Positions 14,201-58,528 of a stretch of DNA of 64,000 nt are shown here, in pieces. This DNA comes from Methanocellales archaeon (lineage in GTDB: Archaea > Halobacteriota > UBA148), in assembly GCA_028715985.1 (NCBI GenBank), contig JAQUQR010000001.1:1-64000 (forward strand). The letters run 5' to 3'. The number at the start of each line of letters is the position of its first letter. Positions within the stretch are counted from its first letter, which is position 1. The notes beneath the pieces were generated by a model. That model made no database searches. It was not told the origin of the DNA and saw only the letters and a program-made list of their open reading frames with translations. The position numbers were made by a program, and so were the translations under genes.

Positions 14201-14929
14201 TTACTGAACTCCTTTTTTAACAGCTTCAGCACCATTTTTTAATGTCCCGGCTTTCAAAAATCCCCAGAGCAAAAATGCTGCACCCAGCATCTCGGCGGGA
14301 TACAAACCAACTGATTGACCCGCCCTTGCCATGCTGCCTGCAGATGCAATGATCAAAGTTCCAAGAGCAATCAACACATTAGCCCACATTCGGTAAGAGT
14401 ACTGTTTTTTTCGGGCGAACAGGACGATAGAATAGATTGCACCACCCAATAGAAATATTGTGCCTGGTATGTTGAGGAATAAGGAACAGATTCTCGGAAA
14501 TGTCTGTGGATCGCCAAGGGCAGTCCCACCCACAGTGATCCCTGCCACCAGATTTTCTTCCACCAACTCGGTGGTAAATGTGCCATAGAGAAATATAGCC
14601 ATTACGATTAAAACAAACATAAAAAAGATGTGTCCATAGATTTTCTCTCTAAAAATAAGATATAATACGCCCAGACCCAAAAAACCAACGAGGGATGCTG
14701 CAAAAACGATATAGATCCGATAAATATTTGGGTCCCATGAATCCGCATACTCTGAATAGGCTTCCATGAAGGCGGCAATGGTATAAATTAGAAATCCAAT
14801 GGACCATGCTACTTGATGTAGTTTACGGCGGTCTAAGTATTGTTTTACTAATAAAATCGTAAAAATGGCACCGATTATCCCCGTTACCAGGGGCCAGGCC
14901 CAATGCGACCAAAACGCTGTCCAATCCAT
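14201..14929 (-). CDS. Seven-span membrane protein of unknown function
   Basis: This 242-residue protein has about seven hydrophobic helices, starting with WAWPLVTGIIGAIFTILLV. Short polar loops include QYLDRRKLHQ after the first helix and EAYSEYADSWDPN after the second. The C-terminus is basic. It resembles conserved seven-span proteins of unknown role found in bacteria and archaea. No catalytic motif was seen. It stands alone, divergent from the GAF-HD gene about 200 bases away. Confidence 0.65.
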   Translation of the reverse strand: MDWTAFWSHWAWPLVTGIIGAIFTILLVKQYLDRRKLHQVAWSIGFLIYTIAAFMEAYSEYADSWDPNIYRIYIVFAASLVGFLGLGVLYLIFREKIYGHIFFMFVLIVMAIFLYGTFTTELVEENLVAGITVGGTALGDPQTFPRICSLFLNIPGTIFLLGGAIYSIVLFARKKQYSYRMWANVLIALGTLIIASAGSMARAGQSVGLYPAEMLGAAFLLWGFLKAGTLKNGAEAVKKGVQ

Positions 14930-15126: not shown

Positions 15127-17961
15127 ATGGAAGAGATGAAAATAATTAAACAAGATACTAAAAAATGGCTTTTAAATATACTTGATCCCGCCAATACTTT
15201 TAGTTTAGGGAAGTTACTTGAGGTAATCGCTCAAAGAATTGCTGAAAGAACACATGGTGAGGATTGTACTATATATCTACTAAAAGACAAAGAAAATAAG
15301 TTGGTGTTATCTGCAGCTACTCGTCCAGTCTTTGCTGAATTAATTGGTGAGGAAGAAGCGGAATATAAACCAAATGAGGGGCTCACTGGTTGGGTCTTTC
15401 AAAAAAAGGAGTCTTTAAAAATCAAGGATGTACACAACAAAAACGAGCTCAGACAAATTTCTCCGGATTTAGTGTGGAGAGATAAATTAGGAACTTTTAC
15501 TCGATTTCCAGTTAGAAATCGATCAATATTAGTTGCTCCTATCCATACAAAGGAAAGTGCGGGTGCTATAGGGGTTATATTAGTAACAGTAGCAACTGAT
15601 AGTGAATTTTCCGATAAGGATAAAATATGCCTCGAAGAGGATGCCATCAATTTAGCATACCTTTTAGAAGAGATGGATTTGTATAGAAATAATAACTCTT
15701 GGGTCGCTAATCTAAAGATTGGTAGTACTCGAAGTAAGGATAAGCTACTTGAACATATAGTTAACGAAGCAGCACATATTATTGGAGTGGGGGCACTTTG
15801 TTCAATCTTTTTTTTGGATAAACAAACAACAAAATATTTTTTGAAAAAAAGCACTCATAAAGAATTTGAAGATGAATACAAAAAACAAAATTTATCATAT
15901 GGGGTTGGCGAGGGTAAGACTGGGTGGGTTGCAAAAAATAACAAAACACTAAAAATAGATGATTTAGATGATAAAATTCTTTTAGAGAGGTATGGACTAT
16001 TAAGTGAAAGTACAAAAAGAGAAATATGTGAAACAATATCTCAGTTTGGGGAGCAAGCGAAATCTTTTCTTGCCGTTCCAATTAGAAATATTAATAACAA
16101 AAATGAAGTTATCGGCATTATCCGAGTGCCTAGTACAAAAAAGAATGCATTCACTGATGAACACACAATCCTGCTTGAACGCTTTGCAGACCAATTATCA
16201 CCCATCATTGAGGAATCTAGGATATTTGAGGCAAGGAACGAGTTGGTAGACACTTTTCTTGAAATGGCACAAATCCAGGACTTAAAATTGTTGTACCAAA
16301 GAATGGCTGATGAAGGAAAATTACTTGTTGATGCTGGTGGATGTTCTGTTTTTATAAAATCTAAAAGTGATCCAGAATGTTTTGAACTTAAGGGAACTAC
16401 ATCCCCCCCATCTTCCCCTATTGATGAAATAGCTGTTAAATCTGGGAGGGGTCTTACTGGGTATGTAGTCCAAACAGGAAAAACTCTGTGTTTACGGAAC
16501 GCTGAGGACGAAAAAGAGCTCGATGAGATTGAAAAAGGTCTTCGGAGACTTGGTGAGTATTGTGAGGTTAAGAGAGTTGGACCATTTTTAGCAGTTCCTG
16601 TTAAGACAACAAATACCCTAACTGGAAAGGAAGATGTAATTGGAGTAGTTCGTGCGCCTCGCGAATATGAAAAAATTGATACTCAAGAGTTTTACACTGA
16701 AGCTGATAAACATCTATTTCAGTTTTTTGCAAGATATCTAAGTCTAGTTATTTCTAGGGTTAAAAGAGAAGCAGATGATCGAATAAGAATAAAACAATTT
16801 GAAAAATCTGAGAAGGAAAGAAGAGAAAATTTCGAAAATATTTTCTCTAAGTGTCTGCTTGAAAAATGTCGCGATATATCTGAACTTAGTTATACACCGC
16901 AAATTCAAAAATTTTTATCTCATTACCCATCATCAGGAGACTTAAAATCGGGTATGGATAAAGTCAAAATTAAATCTCCAATTGAAGCCGTTTTAGACTC
17001 CATTAGTTCGCTTTGGCAAATAGATGAGATGGAAAAATACAATTGTAATTTATTTAATGAACTAAAAAATATAGAAGTTTTGCTAAAAGAGATCCCCCAC
17101 TATCGAGATCATTTTATGCATCAGTTTCAAGTGTTTCTTTTAGGATGTTGTATAATCGATAAGATGTACAAGTTTAAGAAGACTAAAAATTTTTCTACTT
17201 TTTCTGATTTATATTTTAAGTCAATTGAAAATACTTTGTCTGGCAATCAAAAATTTAGTGAGGATGAAAAACGTAAAATAGCTGAGACTGCTTGGCTAAT
17301 TGCCTCGACAACCCACGATCTTTGTTATCCCCTAGAAAGGTTCGATGATTGGATAGGTATATTTATTTCTACTTTCTTTAGCACTGAGAAGAAGTTGGTG
17401 GGTGATATTGAGTTAACAAAACTTGCAGGTGAAGCACTACCATATATAGATAGATGGGCAGAGTTTTGTGGGCAATCAATGAAGATTGGAAGTGATCTTG
17501 TAAATAGTCTAAAATCTAAGTTTCTCGATAAAATGGGTGAGAGAGATCATGGAGTTCTTGGAGCTCTTTCTATCTTGAGTAAAAATGTAATGAATAATGA
17601 AATAATTTTACCTGCAAGTATCGCCATTGCTTCACATAAGAAAATGCTATCTGATTTTCCAGATATAACATTCGAAGATTCTCCACTGGTTTTTCTCTTG
17701 AATTATTGCGACATGGTACATGAATGGGGGCGATGTAAAGATGTTGGATTTGAGGAGGAACTGCGCTTATTGGAAAAGCTAGAAATTTCTCCAAAAAATA
17801 TAAGAACTGAAATAAAACTGGGGGATAGAAAAAAAGCAAAGAATAAACTCGAAGAGTTACGGGGTTGTTTTTCAAAATTAAGGTCTTCTAAACCTATTTT
17901 TTGTATTTACATTAAAGATATTCCTGATGGAGTGGACTCCACATTCAGTGGAAGACAATAG
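15127..17961 (+). CDS. Three-GAF-domain protein with C-terminal HD domain
   Basis: This 944-residue, probably soluble signalling protein has three GAF-type sensor domains in tandem (about residues 20-185, 200-360 and 380-550). Each contains the repeated core GLTGWVFQ / GKTGWVAK / GLTGYVVQ followed by FLAVP-like segments. A coiled linker (about 555-640) leads to a C-terminal HD-type domain. Its candidate metal ligands appear in order: H662 and H665 (DHFMHQ), H730-D731 (THDLCYP), H808 (RDHGV), H837 (ASHKK) and D862 (NYCDMVHEW). This suggests a ligand-controlled phosphohydrolase or phosphodiesterase; the substrate is unknown. Base use is more AT-rich than the core genes, suggesting transfer. A TATA-like ATTTATATTA lies about 35 bases upstream. 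Confidence 0.75.
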   Translation: MEEMKIIKQDTKKWLLNILDPANTFSLGKLLEVIAQRIAERTHGEDCTIYLLKDKENKLVLSAATRPVFAELIGEEEAEYKPNEGLTGWVFQKKESLKIKDVHNKNELRQISPDLVWRDKLGTFTRFPVRNRSILVAPIHTKESAGAIGVILVTVATDSEFSDKDKICLEEDAINLAYLLEEMDLYRNNNSWVANLKIGSTRSKDKLLEHIVNEAAHIIGVGALCSIFFLDKQTTKYFLKKSTHKEFEDEYKKQNLSYGVGEGKTGWVAKNNKTLKIDDLDDKILLERYGLLSESTKREICETISQFGEQAKSFLAVPIRNINNKNEVIGIIRVPSTKKNAFTDEHTILLERFADQLSPIIEESRIFEARNELVDTFLEMAQIQDLKLLYQRMADEGKLLVDAGGCSVFIKSKSDPECFELKGTTSPPSSPIDEIAVKSGRGLTGYVVQTGKTLCLRNAEDEKELDEIEKGLRRLGEYCEVKRVGPFLAVPVKTTNTLTGKEDVIGVVRAPREYEKIDTQEFYTEADKHLFQFFARYLSLVISRVKREADDRIRIKQFEKSEKERRENFENIFSKCLLEKCRDISELSYTPQIQKFLSHYPSSGDLKSGMDKVKIKSPIEAVLDSISSLWQIDEMEKYNCNLFNELKNIEVLLKEIPHYRDHFMHQFQVFLLGCCIIDKMYKFKKTKNFSTFSDLYFKSIENTLSGNQKFSEDEKRKIAETAWLIASTTHDLCYPLERFDDWIGIFISTFFSTEKKLVGDIELTKLAGEALPYIDRWAEFCGQSMKIGSDLVNSLKSKFLDKMGERDHGVLGALSILSKNVMNNEIILPASIAIASHKKMLSDFPDITFEDSPLVFLLNYCDMVHEWGRCKDVGFEEELRLLEKLEISPKNIRTEIKLGDRKKAKNKLEELRGCFSKLRSSKPIFCIYIKDIPDGVDSTFSGRQ

Positions 17962-27585: not shown

Positions 27586-27921
27586 GTTGTAACTGTTTAC
27601 TTCTTTATTATATAAATTTCCGGCAAACCCCTCTTTGGGGGCGATTTCTGCTTTTCTATTCTATATATCTGCTAACTTCCTTATTCATCTTTTACGGCTC
27701 TCCATATAGTTTAATTCTTATTTTTAATGTATTTAAAGGGTTCAAAAGTCTTTGGGCAATTTAACTTAGCATCCATATTAAGAGAAGTTTTTGATAAGAA
27801 GTGGGGTAAAATTTGGGTGAAAGGAGGGTATGAAGGAAACCTTTAGAGTAGGGGCTCACCCAACTGAAACCGTTTAATTCGTGTTATCCTAATCCGCCCT
27901 TAAGAAGTGGGGGTGGGTAGT
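27586..27921. other. AT-rich intergenic region
   Basis: About 335 bases with no gene that can be supported. A short hairpin-forming stretch (ACCCCTCTTTGGGGGC) lies near 27628-27643. A 19-base direct repeat, TAGTTTAATTCTTATTTTT, occurs at 27707-27725 and again at 27149-27167 across the rubrerythrin stop. A GC-richer patch precedes the next gene. Confidence 0.5.
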
Positions 27922-28959
27922 ATGACGCAGGACGGCTGCACAAATACGGAAAGAATTATATGTCTTACTAAGGTTACTTATTATGATATGGTGGAATTAC
28001 CGTTTATTGTGAATTTTATTGCAGAATCTGCTTTTGCATTTGTCTTTGTACCTTTCTTTTTAGGAATGATGCCCCCTATACATTCGAAATCTATTTTTAA
28101 AGGTCTATTTGGGATGATATTTCTTTTCCTTTTTTTTGCAAGAAAATTCAGTTTTAATTTTTTTATAGATACCTCTATTTTTATAGTTTTCATAATTTAT
28201 GGAATTATGGTTCTTGTGCCCATGATTAAGTACAAAGGAAAAATGTACGCCATTGAAGAGTATCAAAAGAAACCTCAAAAACCAAAATATGGTCTTAATG
28301 ATACTATAAAAAGGATTAATAACTTTATTTATGTTGCTTTGTTGGCTTGTCTGTTTTTGCTAATCTCAGTTTTTGTTGGTGCTAAAGACATAACGACTCT
28401 TTTTGGGATTATTTTTTTGCTAAGCATATTAGTAATTATGGGAAATCATTTTATGAATGGTCATATTAAAGATACAACTAATATCGATCCTAAAAAAATT
28501 AAAGTCAATTTGTTAACTCTTATGAGTTTAACTCTAATGCTCTCTTTGATGATATTATTCGTTCTTTTATTTAATGTTAGCAAATATTTTCCAACACTGT
28601 TAGATTCTTTTCCATTTATTGCATTTTTAGTTGCTGTTCCACCATTATATATCTCAAATTATCTGTTGGAACGTTCGAGATTGACCTTTTTCAGAGATCG
28701 AGATGTAGCAAAAATTTTTATTTCCAATATTCTACATTATTCAATAATTTCTGTAGTTATTATAATTATTTTATCAGATATCCCCGTTGCTTTAAGTGTG
28801 CTAAAAGGACAGAATGTAAGTAAAATGATCTATTGGGTCATTGGATTTGTATTTTTTATTACTCAAGCTTTAACGATAATTCTCAAGAAATCTCTTTTAT
28901 TTGGACTAGAATCAAAAATTATTAATTTATCTACCTTAAAAAGTCTGGCGTCCGAGTAA
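27922..28959 (+). CDS. Polytopic membrane protein, unknown
   Basis: This 345-residue protein has about eight to nine hydrophobic helices split by a cytosolic-looking loop near residues 80-105 (KYKGKMYAIEEYQKKPQKPK). No family is recognised. ATG 27922 follows GGGTGGGTAG; an ATG at 27988 just before the first helix is another possible start. Strong AT bias and lack of relatives among neighbours suggest recent acquisition. Confidence 0.55.
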   Translation: MTQDGCTNTERIICLTKVTYYDMVELPFIVNFIAESAFAFVFVPFFLGMMPPIHSKSIFKGLFGMIFLFLFFARKFSFNFFIDTSIFIVFIIYGIMVLVPMIKYKGKMYAIEEYQKKPQKPKYGLNDTIKRINNFIYVALLACLFLLISVFVGAKDITTLFGIIFLLSILVIMGNHFMNGHIKDTTNIDPKKIKVNLLTLMSLTLMLSLMILFVLLFNVSKYFPTLLDSFPFIAFLVAVPPLYISNYLLERSRLTFFRDRDVAKIFISNILHYSIISVVIIIILSDIPVALSVLKGQNVSKMIYWVIGFVFFITQALTIILKKSLLFGLESKIINLSTLKSLASE

Positions 28960-54732: not shown

Positions 54733-57594
54733 TTAAGGCTCTATTGTTTTAAACCTATCAAACTCACTTCTTCTTAAGTCTATTTCCCGCTCAACACGGG
54801 CGTTTTCACATTTTATGCGATTTTGGAGATACGCCATATAAGATTTGGCAAATGAGGAAACAGATTCATTAGGATCATCTTTCCATGACGTTATATCTTT
54901 AATTTTCTCTTCATAGGCTTTTACTAAACCGTACTCCCCTCCAACAAATCTTATATGGGAAAGAATAGATTGAAGCTCTAATCTTAATTCGTGCGAAACC
55001 TCGAAATTTTTAACAATTTCCTTGATGATCTCCAATACATCAGGACTTCCTTCATATTTATCTAAAATCCAAAGAATATAGTCTAATTTTGTAGTATCTT
55101 TTGTTTTTATTATTTGAATCAATTTACCCTTAATATCTCCTTCTATTTTTGGGAATATTATGTTGAATAAACAGCTTGCTCCCCATCTTAGCTTCCCATC
55201 ACCGTTTTCAAACCATTTGAAAATCTCTTTAATTATCAAATCACTATTTTTGTTTAATTTACCAGTTAATAACTGAAAATCAAAAGGAATTGAATCAATC
55301 AACTTTACGCCACTTTCTTTATTTTTAACACGCTTATAGAAAAAATCAATAATCCTCTCAGGTTCTTTTTCAGCTAAAGGCAATAAAACTTGTTCAGTAT
55401 AATAATCCACGACCTTTTTCATAACTAGATTTTTTAGAATGATTTCATATTCATCAACAGATAAATCCTTACTGATTTCATCTGTAAGATATGATACTTT
55501 CTGTGGCCATTCATAAAAAGATAAATCCGTCATTTTATCTATTATTTTTACAAATAACGCCTTAAGGTTCTTATTATTAGAATACTGTCCACATATCGTG
55601 TGTAAAATTGCAAGAATAGATGAAATCTCACCATTTTTCAATATCTTGTTCGTGAGATCTGATAGCAGACACTCATCTATGTCTTTAACTGAGAAAAATG
55701 CAGATGCAATTTCAGATAAAGATTCACTCTTTTTTATCATTGTTTTGATATCCTTTTTAATTTGGCTCTTTTTATCACTTCCCAACAACCCAATTAGCAA
55801 AGCTACTCTAAATTTAGATAATTCGGAAATATCAAGGAGTTTTCTACCTTCGTTTGGTTTTTTGACTGCTAACTTATATAAAAAATAATGAACATTCTGG
55901 TATTCTCCTTGATTCTGGTCATTATAATCAGCCAATATTTCTGTTACTAAATAATTTTTCCATTCATTCAAGTTTTTGTCTGTGATTTGAATAACATAAC
56001 TTTCAATTTGTTCTTTTCTTTCTTTTTCTATCTGTTCGAAGTCTGAACCATAATCTAAGCCATAACCCACAAATGTTTTGTATTTTAGGTAATTCTCATC
56101 ACCTGATAGCTTTCCCTTTATCTCTTTCAGCTTTTCAGATTCGTTACCCGTTCCAGAAAACCATATTAAATGCTTCTCAATGGCTCTTTTATTGTAGTTT
56201 TTTATTTTGTCATAATTTTGGATCAAAAAGGAAAGAATAGTATCAATATTTTCACGCATAGTTTTAGTATGCTCTTCTGTTGTCTTCCCATTATGTATTG
56301 GAGATGAAGAATTAAACAATGCGGTGATAATCTTTTCTGATTCTCTACAATCTTGTTCGTTCTCAAACAATTTAATTAACAATTGTATAGAGTCGTGCCT
56401 GATCTCTTTAATCTTGTCCTTAATGGGTATTGGACCCATAATCAATGTGAATGTATCAAACTGTTCCTGTGCCGAGCCTTCAATTGTGTTATTCAATAAA
56501 GAACCGCATATGGAAATCAAAGCGTCTTTAATTTCTGTATTTTCACTGTCTAATTGAGAGATTCTCTCAATCAATATTTTTTGAGGGGTATAACCAATCG
56601 CTCTAACTGCATTTAAATCATATTTTCCAAATACCTTAAGTGTTTCAAGACATTCTTTTCGGAATAGGTCTTCAGAACATTTATTCACACAAAGTTCAAT
56701 AATTCGTTTATAATCCCAATACTTAACAGATCTAATAAATCTAAAAGAAGCAGTGATAATATCTTGACTCTTTTTGGTCTTCGAGTTACCATCATTCTGT
56801 TTTGATTTGTTCCAAATATCTTCTAAAATAGGTAAAAAATCAAACTCTTCTGGCAACCTATAATAACTCGAAAAAATATTTAACTTATCCATATACTCTA
56901 GTATTTTTTCATTTGAACCCAACTGAGAGAGTTCTTTTAGTTTGTCGATATTTAGTATTTGTTTGCCCTCTTTAAGTCTCTCGAATTGATCAACAATAAA
57001 TGAAAAATTATAACTAGCTTTAGTAATATATTTTGACATTACCTGAGCTAGTTTTTCCTTTAAGAAATCAAAATCTTTTGGAGAGAAATTCATCAGTTCT
57101 TGATCTGGTTTATATATTATATCACGATTTATCTCCGACCAAGCATGGAAAAGAGGAGTTGTAAGTTGTATTTCACAAATTAAATCTTTGAAATTGGTGT
57201 ATTCAACAAGTTTTTCCCTTGCATTATCTAATTTTACAATAATGTGAAGAGCATTATAATTATCGGGGCTACGTTTATCCTTGATATCTTCTATTTTCAA
57301 TTCTTGTTTGATAAATTCACTAAATTTGTAGATATCCTCTTCTAAATAAAAAATCACCCGACAACCAGCTAAGTCGTGAATATTGTTAATTAAATTTGGG
57401 TTGTTTTCAAGTTTTTTCCGTAATGAATCTATGTCTTTGCTTCTAGACTGAATTTGTTGATATTTGAAGTGTTTCGATTTTAGGATTTGTTCAAGAATGG
57501 CAGATACAGACTTGGCAAAATCGGTGTACTTTGTTCTTGATTTTTCATAGTTTTCAACAAACTTATTTATCTTCTCTTTGGTTTTACTATCCAT
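54733..57594 (-). CDS. RelA/SpoT-domain protein with long helical-repeat tail
   Basis: This 953-residue protein starts with a RelA/SpoT nucleotidyltransferase domain (about residues 30-165). Numbering from the ATG at 57600, visible catalytic-type residues are D76 and R81 (HDLAGCRVIFYL), Y115 and H119 (NYNALHIIVK), and E143-Q145 (CEIQLTTPLFHAW, ending in IIYK). Such domains make or consume (p)ppGpp-like alarmones, or pyrophosphorylate tRNA in toxin versions. The remaining 780 residues are mostly helical with HEAT-like spacing and no recognised motif. There is no hydrolase HD domain. Strong AT bias points to transfer. The ATG at 57594 has AGG eight bases upstream; 57600 is possible. Confidence 0.75.
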   Translation of the reverse strand: MDSKTKEKINKFVENYEKSRTKYTDFAKSVSAILEQILKSKHFKYQQIQSRSKDIDSLRKKLENNPNLINNIHDLAGCRVIFYLEEDIYKFSEFIKQELKIEDIKDKRSPDNYNALHIIVKLDNAREKLVEYTNFKDLICEIQLTTPLFHAWSEINRDIIYKPDQELMNFSPKDFDFLKEKLAQVMSKYITKASYNFSFIVDQFERLKEGKQILNIDKLKELSQLGSNEKILEYMDKLNIFSSYYRLPEEFDFLPILEDIWNKSKQNDGNSKTKKSQDIITASFRFIRSVKYWDYKRIIELCVNKCSEDLFRKECLETLKVFGKYDLNAVRAIGYTPQKILIERISQLDSENTEIKDALISICGSLLNNTIEGSAQEQFDTFTLIMGPIPIKDKIKEIRHDSIQLLIKLFENEQDCRESEKIITALFNSSSPIHNGKTTEEHTKTMRENIDTILSFLIQNYDKIKNYNKRAIEKHLIWFSGTGNESEKLKEIKGKLSGDENYLKYKTFVGYGLDYGSDFEQIEKERKEQIESYVIQITDKNLNEWKNYLVTEILADYNDQNQGEYQNVHYFLYKLAVKKPNEGRKLLDISELSKFRVALLIGLLGSDKKSQIKKDIKTMIKKSESLSEIASAFFSVKDIDECLLSDLTNKILKNGEISSILAILHTICGQYSNNKNLKALFVKIIDKMTDLSFYEWPQKVSYLTDEISKDLSVDEYEIILKNLVMKKVVDYYTEQVLLPLAEKEPERIIDFFYKRVKNKESGVKLIDSIPFDFQLLTGKLNKNSDLIIKEIFKWFENGDGKLRWGASCLFNIIFPKIEGDIKGKLIQIIKTKDTTKLDYILWILDKYEGSPDVLEIIKEIVKNFEVSHELRLELQSILSHIRFVGGEYGLVKAYEEKIKDITSWKDDPNESVSSFAKSYMAYLQNRIKCENARVEREIDLRRSEFDRFKTIEP

Positions 57595-57600
57595 TATCAT

Positions 57601-58340: not shown

Positions 58341-58409
58341 ATCTTCACATCTTTTCAGTTATAAAACTTGTATTTGCCCCCGTAAACCGTAATTCTCATT
58401 GCGCATGAA

Positions 58410-58481
58410 TGCGGCTGCCGGGATTTGAACCCGGGTTCTGAGCTTGGGAAGCTCATGTCATAACCACTAAACCACAGCCGC
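58410..58481 (-). tRNA. tRNA-Gly(CCC)
   Basis: On the minus strand all arms fold in 72 bases: acceptor GCGGCTG/CAGCCGC, D-stem GTTT/TGAC, anticodon stem TGAGC/GCTCA, loop TTCCCAA with anticodon CCC, and T-arm CCGGG/CCCGG with loop TTCAAAT. The discriminator is A; no CCA is encoded and there is no intron. It sits within an AT-rich block of accessory genes, a common place for integration. Confidence 0.95.
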
Positions 58482-58528
58482 ATTAGAGAGTACTATATTA
58501 TGTTTATCACACTATTTATTTAACTATG

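Follow-up and report, generated by a model that had tools for sequence, protein, structure and literature searches.

The GAF-GAF-GAF-HD gene and its features

The first 64,000 nucleotides of contig JAQUQR010000001.1 of a Methanocellales archaeon (assembly GCA_028715985.1; this whole stretch is called the window) include, on the forward strand, a gene for a protein of 944 amino acids (aa) in which three GAF domains precede a C-terminal domain with HD-type residues. The opposite strand of 15127-17961 carries stops throughout. A promoter and terminator scan at the gene gave a signal no higher than that of shuffled sequences, and no clear mobile-element ends were found around it, the repeat pairs being weak or distant only. 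The features of the gene are given below, the residue counts referring to the alignment of 20 sequences described in the next section.

15127-17961, plus strand: gene of the GAF-GAF-GAF-HD protein, 944 aa, a single open frame with an ATG start
15202-15639, plus strand: GAF1, about aa 26-171 (best Pfam GAF_3 stretch 26-171; PF01590 genome match 15205-15621)
15739-16200, plus strand: GAF2, about aa 205-358 (best Pfam GAF stretch 205-358; PF01590 genome match 15739-16200)
16291-16752, plus strand: GAF3, about aa 389-542 (third Pfam stretch; limits set by alignment to GAF2)
17080-17739, plus strand: putative HD core, about aa 652-871 (homology across 20 sequences; ligands at or near helix ends in the model)
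17104-17121, plus strand: motif I, R660-D661-H662-x-x-H665 (R660 and H665 20/20, D661 19/20, H662 15/20)
17314-17319, plus strand: HD doublet, H730-D731 (20/20)
17548-17550, plus strand: H808 of the DHG motif (20/20)
17635-17637, plus strand: H837 (20/20)
17710-17733, plus strand: D862 and R869 of the CDxxQEWGR motif (each 20/20)
17770-17913, plus strand: predicted C-terminal beta-beta-alpha-beta element, aa 882-929 (DSSP of model md7f8b86ac182)

GAF units and conserved residues of the HD domain

The match of the protein to PF01590 comprised three stretches (E = 7e-27, 95 bits, cut-off 22.4), and the three units resemble one another: GAF1 and GAF2 share 29% identity over 176 aa (E = 3e-17), GAF2 and GAF3 26% over 165 aa (E = 7e-12), and GAF1 and GAF3 22% (E = 4e-6). 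The three GAF units proposed in the initial annotation, made from the letters alone, were thereby borne out. The repeated GLTGWV core described with it was found in exact form only once, the other copies reading GKTGWV (263) and GLTGYV (442); a core of this type is an ordinary GAF signature and nothing special. A PF01590 search of the whole assembly gave two matches, both inside this gene.

Relatives of the HD domain were found at 23 distinct loci (the window, L012-L022, L025-L028, L050 and L052-L057), 20 of which entered the alignment; the other three (L025, L056 and L057) have broken or cut frames and were omitted, and L023, L024, L029 and L051, repeats of other loci, were not counted. The aligned homologues come from archaea, bacteria and one viral contig and are 17-36% identical to the window sequence. 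R660, H665, G673, H730, D731, H808, H837, D862 and R869 are invariant in the 20 rows, and position 662 is histidine in 15 homologues and asparagine in five. The seven residues first put forward as HD-type metal ligands (H662, H665, H730, D731, H808, H837 and D862) all stand at the positions given for them, and H665, H730-D731, H808, H837 and D862 are invariant; H662 is not family-wide. The putative ligand set, judged from conservation, is therefore H665, H730-D731, H808, H837 and D862, which takes H665 and not H662 because the former is found in 20 of 20 rows and the latter in only 15. D661 appears to be a better candidate than H662 for an extra role at the putative metal site. The mark of the HD superfamily, a conserved HD doublet with outer His and Asp residues, was found in all 20 aligned loci.

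Curated sequence models did not recognise this domain. The hidden Markov model comparison with the HD, HD-GYP and HD-CE families suggested in the initial annotation returned no matching family: the whole 944-aa protein had no match to an HD model of Pfam at E up to 1, the HD part had none among the chains of the Protein Data Bank (PDB) at E up to 10, either by phmmer or with the alignment profile, and comparison with PHROGs gave nothing meaningful. Since no curated sequence model matched, the assignment to the HD enzymes had to rest on conservation among homologues and on structure.

Predicted structure of the C-terminal domain

Two AlphaFold2 models were obtained, one of aa 570-944 (14 rows; predicted local distance difference test score 76.5, predicted template-modelling score 0.85) and one of aa 620-944 (20 rows; 81.0 and 0.85, respectively). 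The predicted domain is helical, with the ligand residues at or near helix ends in the secondary structure of the second model, and is followed by the small beta-beta-alpha-beta element. After realignment by a second program against 1000 chains pre-picked by Foldseek, the 50 rows shown for the first model were 44 class I phosphodiesterases and six PPX/GppA proteins (best row: Z 10.4, 5.4 Å, 232 residues), and those of the second were 41 class I phosphodiesterases and nine PPX/GppA proteins (best row: Z 10.9, 4.0 Å, 182 residues). The phosphodiesterase rows (Z 9.2-10.4 over 197-239 residues) are tied with those of PPX/GppA, which carries an HD-like domain; families missing from these 50-row tables, such as HD-GYP structures, are not thereby excluded as fold neighbours. 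All 50 neighbours shown for each model are HD-fold enzymes, in agreement with the fold expected for this domain in the initial annotation. We accept an HD-type fold, which the models support, because every neighbour row falls in one superfamily and because of the invariant residues.

Comparison with known HD enzymes

The arrangement of GAF domains with an HD-fold hydrolase is of a known kind. The GAF-containing class I phosphodiesterases (PDE2, PDE5, PDE6, PDE10, PDE11 and the trypanosomal PDE-B) likewise have an HD-fold hydrolase preceded by tandem GAFs, and class I enzymes are the best or near-best structural neighbours of the HD models. The window protein differs from them in its three GAFs, its RDH motif and its predicted small C-terminal beta element, and the invariant H808 and H837 of its family are two histidines beyond what we take to be the class I set. 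Neither the whole protein nor its HD part matched PDEase_I of Pfam, and there was no PDB sequence match. The C-terminal HD domain of PPX/GppA provides the top neighbours of the second model (Z 10.5-10.9, 161-182 residues aligned), with no PDB sequence match to the window HD part; in PPX/GppA the HD domain is joined to an ASKHA-type catalytic part, in place of which the window protein has GAFs.

Membership of three other HD families was considered and rejected. HD-CE (PF24391) has its HD-type motifs in the same order as the window protein; PF24391 did not match the window gene in Pfam, its match in this genome lying at C1:295742-296359. The HD-GYP cyclic di-GMP phosphodiesterases have the same layout of sensor and HD domain and a ligand set, H-HD-H-H-D, like that of the window family; there was no match to HD_5 or any other HD model, the sequence at the HD doublet reads HDLCYPLE, the GYP motif is absent, and no GGDEF gene was found in the window's genome. 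Cas3-HD (PF18019) reached 13.2 bits against an NCBIfam cut-off of 43.45, and the PF18019 match of the genome lies on contig C7; the window protein also differs from Cas3 in having no helicase and in having a GAF sensor. The resemblance to second-messenger phosphodiesterases seen in the initial annotation is thus limited to the architecture and the predicted fold, and is not matched by sequence-level membership of HD-GYP or HD-CE.

The HD-CE match at C1:295742-296359 (L090, 109 bits) contains one in-frame TGA; either the gene is broken, or the stop is recoded, or the TGA is a sequencing error.

Distribution, phylogeny and gene neighbourhoods of the family

Of 392 genomes of the phylum, the single sequence found relatives in 11 and a 14-row profile in 17, the window's genome being included each time. 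The closest same-phylum relatives are Methanotrichaceae and Methanoregula records, which supports the archaeal host remarked on in the initial annotation. Further relatives were found in Chlorobi, another bacterium and one viral contig (public-genome and viral scans) and in Parabacteroides (plasmid search). The phage records gave no match to the family. In the plasmid records the Parabacteroides copy was the one match, and there was none when the window sequence was the query; in the viral contigs one relative was found by alignment (L022), together with the Parabacteroides copy again, and none is close to the window protein.

In the 20-row tree, which has several long branches and an arbitrary root, the window sequence groups with L012 of Methanotrichaceae (99/98), then with L013 of Methanoregula (97/92), and then with L014, L015 and the Chlorobi rows (89/93); a pyr clade, a radical-SAM clade and a small third one lie outside this group. 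L012 carries two GAFs and an HD domain by Pfam and is 31% identical to the window protein over 759 aa (E = 5e-89). The GAF matches in L015 and L025 fall below the cut-off. In the Chlorobi rows the GAF domains were judged by eye from GEGIT motifs, and the first 300 aa of L026 had no Pfam match. The bacterial copy L025:9077-11239 is split into three open reading frames (ORFs), one with the GAF part and two with HD parts, and is decayed or frameshifted.

The neighbourhoods of the other clades include nucleotide enzymes. In the archaeal family f8, pyrF, pyrE and the HD gene are consecutive in 6 of 11 loci (L019, L020, L021, L052, L053 and L056; Pfam OMPdecase and Pribosyltran), and the five of these loci that were aligned have the motif RDN, not RDH. 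In Parabacteroides distasonis (NZ_OY725812.1, L050:4573-9215), genes for ThsB_TIR, Nmad2, HMUDK_hel (of the 5-hmdU-DNA-kinase type), radical SAM and HD proteins form an island downstream of an integrase; the set resembles a conflict system of the nucleotide-modifying kind. The archaeal locus L017 has the radical SAM-HD pair as well, followed there by a uracil-DNA glycosylase gene; the radical SAM proteins of the two loci are 31.7% identical. In L018 a ThsB_TIR gene follows the HD gene, and the gene beside L016 matches nucleoside-deoxyribosyltransferase weakly, under the cut-off. In Chlorobi, L028 lies near AbiD and L027 near RhuM, Fic/BRO and YhcG genes (PADLOC scan of 10 hand-picked neighbours, with no baseline rate). 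What these contexts share is nucleotide chemistry; several branches also have neighbourhoods of the conflict type.

What is new here is an HD family with no sequence match in Pfam, NCBIfam or the PDB, its sparse archaeal and bacterial spread, and its contexts; in a literature search we recognised no paper describing this family, which is not a claim that none is in print.

A variable genomic slot

The gene lies in a slot between fumarase genes and an ABC transporter. Its flanks are collinear in the congeners G002 and G003, with genes that are 83-98% identical; the slot comparison covers these two, the contig of a third congener ending at the slot. The slot of G002 holds a 134-aa ORF with no Pfam match, and that of G003 a 377-aa ORF, a homologue of window 14201-14929 and an Rce1-like 244-aa ORF (membrane protease). 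The HD domain was absent from the relatives searched (three congeners, one other member of the family and six others of the order, some of these assemblies being incomplete). The GC content of the 944-aa gene is 34.5%, and that at third codon positions (GC3) is 0.253, the second lowest among the 55 window ORFs of at least 150 aa (median 0.46). Because of this low GC3, the lack of the HD domain in three congeners and the collinear flanks in the two compared, the gene is judged to be an accessory, horizontally acquired insertion.

The slot cargo differs between the compared species of the genus (L136:4200-6186 and L137:4258-8307). The lowest GC3 of the same 55 ORFs (0.248) belongs to a 350-aa ORF with multiple membrane spans at 27907-28959 on the plus strand.

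Proposed activity

The protein probably hydrolyses a nucleotide, as a metal-dependent phosphohydrolase or phosphodiesterase under GAF control. Judging from the nucleotide enzymes that neighbour other clades of the family, the substrate is most likely a nucleotide that is free, cyclic or modified. The protein would be intracellular, and its three tandem GAFs would bind a small ligand, dimerise, or both; the signal would pass through a putative linker (about aa 545-620) to the C-terminal domain of predicted HD fold. There, H665, H730-D731, H808, H837 and D862 may hold one or two divalent metals which, to judge from the chemistry of the HD superfamily, would activate water for phosphoester cleavage; the invariant R660 and R869 probably bind phosphate. 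By analogy, the layout would work like that of PDE2, PDE5 and PDE6, with an HD domain of its own, uncurated family.

Several observations weigh against this assignment. The nucleotide-enzyme neighbours belong to other clades, and no gene is found consistently next to members of the GAF-bearing clade. The segment aa 571-918 matched nothing in Pfam even at E up to 10; the faint matches obtained were to Cas3-HD, over aa 802-881 (PADLOC E 0.018, NCBIfam E 0.068), and profile-profile comparison (local hhalign) gave probabilities of 5.5% for HD-CE and 7.4% for Cas3-HD, over short stretches. Foldseek alone gave zero structural matches at E <= 0.001 for both models, and the Z values across the 50-row tables of both (9.2-10.9), at about 10, fall under the level of about 13 at which the aligner calls for caution with helical bundles.

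A broader proposal, which we regard as improbable, is that a horizontally spread, GAF-gated HD family switches off or depletes an archaeal nucleotide signal, in parallel (convergent or ancestral) to the animal GAF-phosphodiesterases, while its sister clades act in a pyrimidine operon and in conflict systems of the nucleotide-modifying and TIR-linked types. If such a signal-off role were true, this would be, to our knowledge, the first sensor-bearing HD-fold nucleotide-messenger hydrolase dedicated to that role in archaea. As far as we know, few enzymes have been assigned in archaeal nucleotide signalling, and the evidence is mostly from metabolite measurements. A soluble sensor-enzyme with an invariant putative catalytic set is directly testable, and the result would assign a role to an HD family found repeatedly near genes for pyrimidine synthesis, TIR proteins and DNA-base modification. 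According to PMC8646023, cAMP, cGMP, cyclic di-AMP and 2',3'-cyclic nucleoside monophosphates (cNMPs) have been measured in two archaeal models.

Alternative readings and nucleotide-messenger genes of the genome

A rather unlikely alternative is an anti-phage or stress effector, or a regulator, which would deplete or edit nucleotides once its GAFs sense infection. The gene does lie in a variable slot, and relatives are found by ThsB-type TIR (L018 and L050), AbiD (L028) and RhuM, Fic/BRO and YhcG genes (L027); however, no defence gene was recognised beside the window gene, the 10 PADLOC-scanned neighbours were hand-picked with no chance rate for comparison, the Chlorobi and Parabacteroides branches are distant from that of the window, and members of f8 sit in a housekeeping pyr operon.

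We also consider it unlikely that the nucleotide hydrolase proposed above is specifically a 3',5'-cNMP phosphodiesterase, an archaeal counterpart of PDE2 and PDE5 whose GAFs sense a cNMP or a metabolite and which acts as the off-switch for the genome's class III cyclase. The initial annotation had stated that no cyclase partner lies nearby, which is right for the neighbourhood; class III cyclase-like and di-adenylate cyclase (DAC) genes are present elsewhere in the genome. The former (L062:4037-5005, contig C5) encodes a 322-aa protein matching PF00211 above the cut-off (26.7 bits against 21.9), in which FVDIRGFS, KSTGDG and N-x3-R, which we take to be the class III cyclase motifs, were seen by eye; its C-terminal half had no Pfam match. 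This gene, the GAF-phosphodiesterase layout and fold neighbours that are mainly class I cNMP phosphodiesterases favour such an activity, as do the reports of 3',5'-cAMP and cGMP in Haloferax and Sulfolobus given in PMC8646023. Against it, the cyclase-like gene is on another contig, the family has its two extra invariant histidines relative to the class I set, and co-occurrence is at chance level: PF00211 was found in 10 and the HD family in 17 of the 392 phylum genomes, with both only in the window's genome (chance expectation 0.43, P(>=1) = 0.36). A partner cyclase identified by co-occurrence was accordingly dropped. Cyclic di-AMP is unlikely as a dedicated substrate, because DAC matched in three named archaeal controls and in this genome (here with 73.2 bits), whereas only 17 of the 392 phylum genomes carry the HD family.

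HD-fold hydrolases are known partners of RelA/SpoT-type synthetases, and the window contains one candidate gene of this type:

54733-57600, minus strand: RelA/SpoT-like synthetase gene, 955 aa, possible partner (phmmer match to PDB 6fgk, YwaC)

The N-terminus of its product matched YwaC with E = 1.2e-8 over query aa 44-182. Such synthetases are reported in PMC8646023 to be very rare in archaea. That the HD protein is an alarmone hydrolase, with a role like that of MESH1 or the SpoT HD domain, acting on the products of this synthetase is very unlikely, since, against the N-terminal match, the known partnership of such enzymes and an unusually low GC3 in both genes (0.25 and 0.27), the two genes are 37 kb apart and not adjacent, Pfam and PDB searches gave no match to the hydrolases of RelA/SpoT homologues, and, according to PMC8646023, (p)ppGpp went undetected in both archaea under study. 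The RelA/SpoT-like protein has a long C-terminal region that is helical-repeat-like by eye, and a tRNA-Gly gene (58409-58482) lies close to its gene.

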